NCBI GenBank assembly: GCA_036925085.1
Contig: JAUPFP010000037.1
Location: 1,694,001 to 1,758,000 of the forward strand
DNA length: 64,000 bases
Direction of reading: 5' to 3'
Origin: Brachycybe producta
Taxonomy: Eukaryota > Arthropoda > Diplopoda > Playtdesmida > Andrognathidae
Shown: piece by piece, positions 3,993 to 44,300 of the stretch
How the letters are laid out: each line of letters opens with the position of its first letter
How positions within the stretch are numbered: position 1 is the stretch's first letter
Notes under the pieces: model-generated
Seen by the model: only the letters and a program-made list of their open reading frames with translations
What the model was told of the DNA's origin: nothing
The model's database searches: none
Made by a program: the position numbers and the translations under genes

Positions 3993-4199
3993 ACAGGCAA
4001 TTAGAAATCGAGACGAACTTCAGTTGGCTCCGCCCCTTTTTATGACGACCGGCAACTTCTAATTGGTTTGTTGTGTGGATCGACGTTGTGACGTTCGAGC
4101 ATGTGACGTCAGACTACATAACCAACCAATTAGAAGTTGCCGGTCGTCATAAAAAGTGGCGGAGCCAATTGAAGTTCGTCCCGATTTCTAATTGCCTGT
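3993..4199. mobile_element. Family A foldback MITE, copy 1
   Basis: A 207-bp palindromic element: arms begin ACAGGCAATTAGAAATCG and end with the reverse complement GCCTGT; inner arm sequence includes GGCGGAGC and GCCGGTCGTCATAAAAAG. The short centre holds TGACGTCA (4104-4111). Flanks match 8 of 9 bp (ataatatac / gtaatatac). No coding capacity. Confidence 0.88.
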
Positions 4200-4499
4200 G
4201 TAATATACACAGGTGACTCAACTTAAGAGAGCTCTTCCTATGGTGGCATTTTCTGGCAAAAAAAACTGACTGTGGCCAACAGATGGCGCAAACTGTACTT
4301 AATGCTTCAGTTACTACTACAAATAAAATGGCTGACTTTTTAAACAATGTCTTCCTTCTAGCTTCAAAAAGCAGAGGATTCTTCACTCACTTTTGGCGGT
4401 TTTTTTTTCTAACATGGAGTTGCTATACCTTTTATAAATTTATCTTGTTCAAAAGACACTTTAACTTTTTTTAAAGGTGGTTTCTATCTATAGCAAAAA

Positions 4500-41300: not shown

Positions 41301-44300
41301 CTTTTATGACAGCTGAGTTTCTGAAGGGAGGAATGACCAAAATGGCAAATGCTAATTTTAAATTAAAAAAAATTGGCAAGATTCCTTTTCTAATAGATTA
41401 TTGAACGCAATAGAACTTGAAATTAATATAATTCAAATGTCAGGTCAAATCTTTTATATGCAAATTAAAAATTTAGGAACTTTTTTTTAGGCAAAATTGT
41501 GTCGTTTATTGTAGTTTATTATGTTAGGAAATTTTCTTTTTTTTTTATGTAAAACTTCGTGAAGTTTTCAAGATAGAAAGAAGAATAACAATTTCTTTTT
41601 TTAGTTAAATAAATAAAATTTTAATTAATGTTTAAAATTTAATTTTCGGTGATATCATCACAACAAAAAAGTTTTAACATTTTCTTCACAATAAAGGTCC
41701 AACAAACTTATTTAATATTTAATTGTTTTCAATTTTTTTTTATTTTTTTCTAATTTAAATATTTTTTTTTACATTTTAAGTAAATAAAAAAATTTAAAAA
41801 TGCTAATTAAATGACTAACTTTAATTATTATTATATATATATATTAAGCTCCGTCTTTCTGTCTGACCTAACGCTGTACAAACAAAGACAAAAACCTTGA
41901 AGCACGTCGGAATTTATAAAATGAACGGCTTTTTTTTCAAGGTCAACTATATGGTGCACACTCCCCATCCAAGAACCCCATGATAGTAAATTGGAGAGGG
42001 GGAAAAGGTTGGAAAGTGTAGAGAGAGAGAGAGAAAGAGAGAGAGAAACGTGGAAGGAGAAAAAAGGAGGAGGGGGTGACTGAAATTGAAATGAAATGAG
42101 TAAAAAAGGAACAAACGACGCGCATGCGCACACCAGAGAAAATGAAAAACTCATTTTTTTCTTTCAAATATAAAAAGGGGAGGGGATAATAGTAGCAAAA
42201 TTAAACTACAGTTTATCACAGGCAATTGTGCCCAGCATTAGAATTTCTTTTGCTCAGCCCTTTTATGAACGTCATCAATTTCTAATTGGGTTTGTTACTT
42301 GGTCTGACGTCATAAAAGGGCGGAGGAAAAGAAATTCTAAGGCAGGACACAATTGCCTGTGAATTTGGCTCCCGTCATTTATGACGGGTTACCCCACTAG
42401 TTATTTAATAATCAAACAAAAATAATCACAAAATATTTGGTATTCAGCTTGTTCGCGAATTAGCTAGAAAAAGGTTTTTTTTTTAAAGCTTCGGATTGAT
42501 GTGTAGGACTTTACTTTTTATAATATTTTATTATTTAATAATGTTCATATTTGACAATAACATAAAAATGTTACAAATAAACCAAATTTGGTTTGTGTAG
42601 ATTTTTGTGAAAATTATTTTCTGACATATTTGATATACATAGGTTAAAAAAGCTTGACAGCTTTTGGATTGAAGTAGGACTTTATGGAATTATGGGATGA
42701 GGAAAAAAAACGATTTTGAAAAAATATGAAAATTGCGTATTTTGAATCTTTTTTTTTTTTTACTCTTCTAGTTTCTAACAAACTTTGAATATTTTTTCAA
42801 AAGTTGCTACATTGAATATAACTATAGTTGAGAATCTTGTAAAAGATGTTTGTGAATATCTCTTAAAGGATGTTATCCCCCTACCCCCAAAGGCAGTTAG
42901 AAATAGGGGAGAACTTCAGTTGTCTCCGCCCTTTTTATGACGAACGGCAACTTCTAATTGGTTTGTTTTGTGGTTCGACGTTGAAAAGGGCGGAGCATGT
43001 GACGTCAGACTACATAACCAACCAATTAGAAGTTGCCAGTCGTCATAAAAAGGGCGGAGCCAACTGAAGTTCTCCCCGATTTCTAACTGCCTGTCTCCCC
43101 CCCCCCCCCTCCATTTTGACATTGGAATTTTGGATATTTAATATTAAATGTAGAATGTTAATTTATGATGCCATTTCTATTGTGTATAATGAGATAAGAG
43201 AGTGATATTGTTCATTGTATGTTCTTCTTACGTTTCAAGTATTTAATGTATATTATAATTTTAAAAGTTTATATTATTGGTCATATTTCTAAACAAGCTT
43301 GCAATGAATTTATGACTATAACTTGAGAAACATGAGACTTTTTTATGTTAATAGATATCGTACATTATTTTATTTTTTTAATAGAAACGTGTTGTGGTTT
43401 TGGAATCCAAATTATGTTTTGTTAGAAAAGAAAAAACGTCCATTGGCCATTTTAGCTCAACTTTTTTTTTTTTTTGTTTATTTTTCTTACAAGTCTTAAA
43501 AAAAATAACAAGAAACTTTTTTGTTGTTAGAAAGTTTTTATGTTTTTGTTTTCTTTGAAATTTTGTTTTAAATTAAACACAAACACAATAAGGAGGGGAC
43601 AAAGAACTCTTCCTTTTTTTGTGTCTTCTTCTTCTTCTAAATTTCGTGTTTTCTTCACTCAATCATTTTCACTTTTTGTGTGGTCCTGCGCAAAGAACTT
43701 TTTCTTCTTGTCTCAGCTTTTCACATGCAAACTTTTAAGGTGGTTTTTTTTTTCAGTGTAAACACGTCCTTCGAACTTTGTGGTTGTTCTGATTTTCAGG
43801 AGCAATTTGAAATTAGAGACCTAAATTATGTAACAATTTGAAGCCAGACCCAATAAGCCCACGAAACCTACAAGGCACACACACACTATTCTTATGAAGT
43901 CCACAGAACTATTATGCCCACGAGAGGCCATGTATCCATGAAATTCAAGTTATAACTTTTAAGTTGAAATTATGGCACTTTCAACTTAAGAAAAAGGGGA
44001 ATAAAATAGTCTGTAAAATATCCAAGACTTTTAATGAAAATTATCAGTTAAAAACATAACAAGTTTGCTTTTTTATGATGTCCACAAAGCTCACCAGGCA
44101 AACAAAACCCACTAGGACCACAAAGCCCACCAGGCAAACACAACCCACTAGGACCACAAAGCCCACCAGGCAAACACAACCCACTAGGACCACAAAGCCC
44201 ACCAGGCAAACACAACCCACTAGGACCACAAAGCCCACTAGGACCACAAAGCCCACCAGGCAAACAAAACCCACTAGGACCACAAAGCCCACTAGGACCA

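Follow-up and report, generated by a model that had tools for sequence, protein, structure and literature searches.

Family A, a high-copy family of palindromic MITEs of probable Mutator type whose arms may evolve in concert

Family A is a high-copy MITE family, probably of the Mutator type, and its copies are true transposon insertions. As a kind of element it is ordinary; its least ordinary point, and the one that merits specialist attention, is the possible concerted evolution of its arms. The window analysed was the whole 64-kb stretch at positions 1694001-1758000 of C37, in a genome of 295.3 Mb and 442 contigs whose size and content are those of a eukaryote. Nine palindromes with ACAGGCA(A/G)TTAG tips had been reported from this DNA in an earlier note, and all nine were confirmed at their positions. 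The copies in the window are 203-209 bp long (typically ~206 bp), with the tip sequence ACAGGCANTTAG and arms of four types (A1, A2, A3 and A4):

Family A copy 1: 3993..4199, + strand; arms A4/A4; duplication 8/9
Family A copy 2: 6033..6235, + strand; arms A2/A2; duplication 9/9, GCAGCCGAA
Family A copy 3: 15546..15752, + strand; arms A4/A4; duplication 7/9
Family A copy 4: 16632..16839, + strand; arms A1/A1; duplication 9/9, CATTTTTAT; related empty sites
Family A copy 5: 22595..22803, + strand; arms A2/A2; duplication 9/9, GAAATGGTG
Family A copy 6: 26673..26877, + strand; hybrid arms A4/A2; duplication 8/9
Family A copy 7: 28480..28687, + strand; arms A1/A1; duplication 8/9
Family A copy 8: 34180..34386, - strand (core strand); arms A3/A3; duplication 8/8
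Family A copy 9: 42889..43094, + strand; arms A1/A1; 8-bp duplication with one mismatch, in C-rich, low-complexity surroundings

The tip pattern, searched with up to two mismatches, occurred 31 times in the window where 7.08 occurrences were expected, and none of 100 shuffles reached 31. Copy 16632, folded as single-stranded DNA, had an energy of -82.3 kcal/mol, whereas shuffled sequences averaged -22.6 (z = -19.4), and no Rfam match to a structured RNA was found within the 64-kb window. The elements had been described as near-perfect palindromes with almost no loop. The outer arms do pair perfectly, all 75 outer positions of each arm being paired in a consensus built from 37 A1 copies, and those of the A2 consensus pair likewise except for one unpaired base; 'almost no loop' was too strong, since the central ~55 bp pair partly. 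This core reads identically in the A1 and A2 consensus. The copies show no coding sequence, as had been claimed; a 154-codon stop-to-stop frame crosses copy 6033.

Target duplications were scored in 50 full-length copies, comprising the nine in the window and 41 from fetched loci on many contigs. A1 is over-represented in this sample because the 41 fetched copies were mostly best matches to copy 16632. One member of the sample, L038:2774, is a single unit of a nested array, and another, L030:647, has a misplaced end and was entered among the copies without a duplication. Duplications with at most one mismatch were present in 38 of the 50 copies (9 bp in 22, 8 bp in 13 and 3 further at 10 bp); 10-bp duplications with one mismatch were seen in five copies, two of them already among the 13 at 8 bp. 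Exact duplications numbered 14 at 9 bp, 8 at 8 bp and 0 at 10 bp, compared with shuffled flank pair means of 0.28 at 9 bp and 0.23 at 8 bp; for one mismatch, the shuffled means were 0.34 (8 bp), 0.38 (9 bp) and 0.12 (10 bp). No duplication by the criteria used (8-10 bp, at most one mismatch) was found in 12 of the 50. These results agree with the earlier list, which had perfect 9-bp duplications at 6033, 16632 and 22595, matches at 8 of 9 in three further copies, and 8 identical bp at 34180, and they extend its consistency beyond the window, at 8-10 bp with a mode of 9.

Comparison of joined flanks with related repeats revealed empty sites with the target present once for three copies (window 16632, L012:1501 and L015:2490). 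The empty site of window copy 16632 was found at window positions 9045-9125 and in L012, with a few bases differing in the target region; that of L012:1501 was found in L016 with the target AGTTAAAAC intact, and that of L015:2490 at L015:805-945 with one mismatch. At L059, family A members are nested inside another copy with AACTTCTGT at both junctions, and the outer copy, rejoined across the insert, matches the A2 consensus at 186 of 206 positions with a gap-free junction. The duplications, the empty sites and the nested L059 copy together show that family A copies are true transposon insertions.

Genome-wide, the exact 20-base tip occurred 5,627 times (2,773 + 2,854; reversed control 0 and 0), and exact matches to the arm patterns numbered 1,110 for A1, 2,382 for A2, 1,279 for A3 and 648 for A4 (reversed controls 0). 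Copy number was estimated at ~9,400 from tip pairing (in the first 100 tips of the list, 30 have a partner at the expected spacing) and at ~8,200 from the four arm patterns, both being rough values that assume independent loss of the two tips. With nine copies in 64 kb, the window is ~4-5 times denser than the genome average. The median difference from the group's own consensus was 3.4% in the A1 group (41 copies, some A4 included) and 6.3% in the A2 group (9 copies), and in the A1 group C>T/G>A changes were at 5.1% at CpG relative to 3.1% elsewhere. Perfect duplications had been taken to imply recent movement; the duplications are there, but the argument for recent movement is weak, as window copies differ by 3.9-14.6% from a consensus dominated by A1 (subfamily difference accounting for part of this) and the closest pair among the 50 copies is 98.1% identical. 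This divergence appears to fit past bursts better than present activity, in a sample made up of best matches to one copy.

Family A is most probably a non-autonomous Mutator-like MITE that moves by cut-and-paste, using a transposase supplied in trans that makes staggered cuts of 8-10 bp (mostly 9 bp). The copies are short, non-coding, bounded by inverted repeats, present in high number and flanked by duplications, as is expected of MITEs. The Mutator-like fit proposed in the earlier note is supported by the occurrence of such non-coding elements, with mostly 9-bp duplications, across many contigs. MULE target duplications are given as 8-10 bp in the cited parts of PMC5225508 and PMC3169594, and it is the 8-10 bp range with its mode of 9, seen in 38/50 copies, that places family A with Mutator-like elements. 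Long TIRs were also found: the A1 consensus pairs at all 75 outer positions and partially further in, an arm length (~75 bp) below the >100 bp that the cited part of PMC5225508 describes as typical. MULE genes are present in the genome: the PF10551 (MULE) profile gave 21 matches, many inside long open frames, and PF21056 matched at 8 places, of which C6 and C9 are absent from the PF10551 list. When five MULE proteins were scanned, all five had the MULE domain, three had C2H2 and two had weak SWIM matches. The class assignment draws on duplication length, arm length and the MULEs in the genome, with a partner element playing no part in it, and we infer that the enzyme moving family A is a MULE transposase.

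It is unlikely that family A is instead part of a different superfamily whose duplications measure ~8-9 bp, either Merlin or one not yet described, the MULE genes then being unrelated to it. Such a placement would agree with the result that no MULE gene with family A tips was found in the loci searched, and with the different tips carried by the MULE whose ends are known, but the spread over 8, 9 and 10 bp with a mode of 9 is that described for MULEs in the text cited from PMC5225508 and PMC3169594. Against Merlin, the IS1595-like DDE transposase domain of that type (PF12762) had 0 matches in a six-frame search of the genome without exon joining. Rehavkus elements have 9-bp duplications, a transposase type of their own and long, repeat-rich TIRs. 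A Rehavkus-type element, as suggested in the earlier note, would share the 9-bp duplications and long arms of family A; the duplication length is common to MULEs at large, no such transposase has been shown with family A tips, and we regard this assignment as very improbable.

An autonomous partner with the same tips, which the earlier note had thought might still exist, was not recovered: no family A tips enclosing a MULE gene were found in 3.2-kb loci around all 21 MULE matches or in 7-9-kb loci around 13 of the 21. Nor did the sequence examined contain any matching pair of tips separated by 400-8000 bp in which 7 or more of the 9 flanking bases agree. A source element with ACAGGCA tips may have been lost or degraded, may be missing from the assembly, or may have been overlooked by a limited search. 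Several candidates were rejected. The A- and B-type palindromes neighbouring the C2H2-MULE genes of L052 and L053 appear to be separate insertions or fragments of another element and not gene ends (a genome search with the 5′ part of this gene gave only 4 matches), and on C1 three pairs of tips spaced 0.9-3.2 kb apart proved to be separate short family A copies. The C2H2-MULE found at L055:3014-7186 (C13) and in L056 (C28) is 4.2 kb long, with an intact 796-codon frame and 70-bp inverted ends at 91%, and has tips (ACTAGCG) that differ from those of family A. Its two copies are 99.45% identical over 4,194 positions with unlike flanks, and the duplication is a perfect 9 bp in L056 (AAAGAAGAT) and 8/9 in L055. 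The identity at two places and the 9-bp duplication therefore indicate that a young MULE exists in the genome, and its sequence makes it a promising candidate for an animal-type MULE with recent activity.

Other MULE genes were observed alongside these. SWIM-type genes occur in head-to-head pairs at L057 (C5:5400000-5408999) and also on C2 and C38; on C5 the arms are 99.8% identical for 4.2 kb or more, continuing to where the examined stretch ends, and the whole SWIM-type gene therefore lies within a giant inverted repeat. L035 and L040 have long open C2H2-MULE frames that carry E in place of the D found in their relatives' (I/V)DST motif, a D that we take to be the first catalytic aspartate; these copies are perhaps inactive or domesticated.

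The arms of family A tend to be alike within a copy. The A1 and A2 consensus differ by 16 substitutions forming 8 mirrored pairs, each of the 8 in one arm being mirrored in the other. Three comparisons were made with shuffled arms, all of which leave shared ancestry in the counts: on C1 below 20 Mb, where 200 exact arms gave 33 elements (28 of the same type, 5 hybrid), the 28 like-armed elements compared with a shuffled-label mean of 10.06 and maximum of 19 (20,000 shuffles); among fetched copies, both arms were typed in 46 of 56 (including six added copies from loci chosen for odd tip spacing), and 42 were alike and 4 hybrid, against a shuffled mean of 24.3 and maximum of 34; and in the 37 A1 copies, with right arms shuffled, there were 18 mirrored changes against a mean of 6.41 (0 of 2,000 shuffles reached 18), of 10 distinct kinds against 4.71 (10 reached in 5 of 2,000). 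Thirteen of these 18 mirrored changes lie outside CpG, and some mirrored changes, at positions 19, 33, 41 and 58, are present in one copy only. One-sided changes far outnumber double changes (162 vs 20). The A2 group (9 copies) showed a weak excess, with 14 doubles against 8.33 expected, 9 of them mirrored.

The excess of like-type arms and the mirrored A1/A2 differences suggest occasional recopying of one arm from its partner, a proposition to which we give an even chance. In such a process, the outer ~75 bp of the arms would be kept alike either through template switches from one inverted-repeat arm to the other or through conversion among copies, with the asymmetric core left unchanged; a copy whose arms differ in type would be an intermediate or an exchange product. 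Template switching would also account for the runs of mirrored changes at positions 21-23 and 27-29. In the cited portion of PMC8604942, template switching between inverted-repeat arms is described as homogenising arms and as able to invert spacers, and is known from phage, bacteria, yeast and humans. The cores of the A4/A2 hybrids 26673 and L069:276 (typed with 3 mismatches) are in opposite relative orientation, as spacer inversion would give, and two copies prove nothing. The hybrids 26673 and L068:20 have duplications matching at 8/9, so those two can be explained without a crossover between distant copies; L013:533, which sits in GT repeats, and L069:276 had no match of at least 7/9.

The arms could also be alike only through descent from subfamily founders that were already symmetric, with no arm-to-arm copying within the family, and we put this just short of evenly balanced. 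Most mirrored differences are fixed between subfamilies, one-sided changes predominate, and common ancestry can inflate the counts of like arms and mirrored changes, all of which favour symmetric founders. Descent of this kind leaves unexplained, however, why mirrored positions of both arms should differ among four founders that have the asymmetric core in common, and the mirrored changes confined to one copy and the existence of hybrid copies also argue against it. The fuller proposal of concerted arm evolution, that repeated template switching or conversion rewrites both outer arms as a matched pair while the tip and asymmetric core are kept, is offered tentatively, with rather less than even confidence. 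If true, concerted rewriting could explain palindrome B and related palindromes, which have the tip and inner blocks in common with family A and differ in the intervening stretch.

Palindrome B occurs twice in the window, in the arms of one larger element:

Palindrome B: 40106..40253, no strand assigned; left arm of the larger inverted-repeat element; tip TCACAGGCAATTGTG
Palindrome B: 42216..42362, no strand assigned; right arm of the same larger inverted-repeat element

The tip of B can also be written TCACAGGCAATTGTGCCCAGC, and its end pattern has 3,171 genome occurrences. A and B have in common the tip ACAGGCAATT as well as blocks further in (20-90 bp, 70-95%), with a different stretch between. 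The larger element is non-coding and spans ~40067-42401, with ends given as ACTAGTGGGGTAACCCGTCA or ACTAGTGGGGTAACCCGTCATAAATGACGGG and one B palindrome per arm. A query with its 71-base end gave 553 first-look candidates, of which 40 were scored, all at 97-100%, and the element was also observed at L054:4705-6573 and L060:1040-1700. At L053:1170-1590, an A copy interrupts a B-type palindrome whose left and right flanks, ATTCAGGAT and ATTCAGAAT, agree at 8/9. This hints that 9-bp duplications are produced by B as well.

Further features were observed in or beside these palindromes. Three pairs of A4 arms lie in tandem at C3:2958698-2959337 with a ~242-base period, which may represent a family A copy becoming a small tandem array. 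A match to U2 spliceosomal RNA (164.4 bits) lies at L068:489-681 between two family A copies. The motifs GGGCGG, TGACGTCA and ATTGG occur in family A arms and core, palindrome B and the larger element, and GCGCATGCGC occurs in the larger element; by motif only, we take these to resemble putative GC-box, CRE, CCAAT and NRF1 sites, respectively.

A literature search, including titles on transposition with ACAGGCA, returned no description of family A, which is apparently undescribed as a family within the literature searched. This adds to the Mutator-type MITEs a large family whose duplications are clean and for which empty sites exist, and the family's thousands of palindromic copies with four arm types would permit the frequency of arm overwriting to be counted inside a mobile element.

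Among known systems, as presented in the cited parts of each source, Tm1-ML (the MITE-like Tm1 Mutator/Foldback elements of Meloidogyne) resembles family A in having non-coding inverted repeats of <0.5 kb and duplications of 8-10 bp, mostly 9 bp (45 of 53 elements; PMC3169594). The 7-bp end motifs of Tm1 are unlike each other (CGGTTAA and CCTACCC), whereas family A has ACAGGCA at both ends; Tm1 TIRs hold ~14-bp tandem repeats, and none were seen in family A; and Tm1 has tens of copies and a transposase that has been found, in contrast to the thousands of copies and no transposase found here (PMC3169594). The non-autonomous Muta1 derivatives of Aedes aegypti are similarly moved in trans, number from thousands to hundreds and make duplications of 8 or 9 bp, with TIRs of >100 bp; unlike family A, Muta1 has TIRs that combine a terminal motif of 10 bp with subterminal tandem repeats of 12 bp, and its autonomous element is known and active (PMC5225508). 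Like family A, Tetris/DAIBAM of Drosophila virilis is Foldback-like with 8-10 bp duplications, no autonomous copy was found for it, it was assigned to Mutator by duplication length alone, and it is a source of tandem repeats; it differs in having far fewer complete elements and another sequence (PMC4079207). The Galileo chimeras of Drosophila mojavensis combine two TIRs from different subfamilies, as the family A hybrids do, but Galileo belongs to the P superfamily, with 7-bp duplications, and its chimeras are without matching duplications, whereas those of the family A hybrids 26673 and L068:20 match at 8/9 (PMC3573991).
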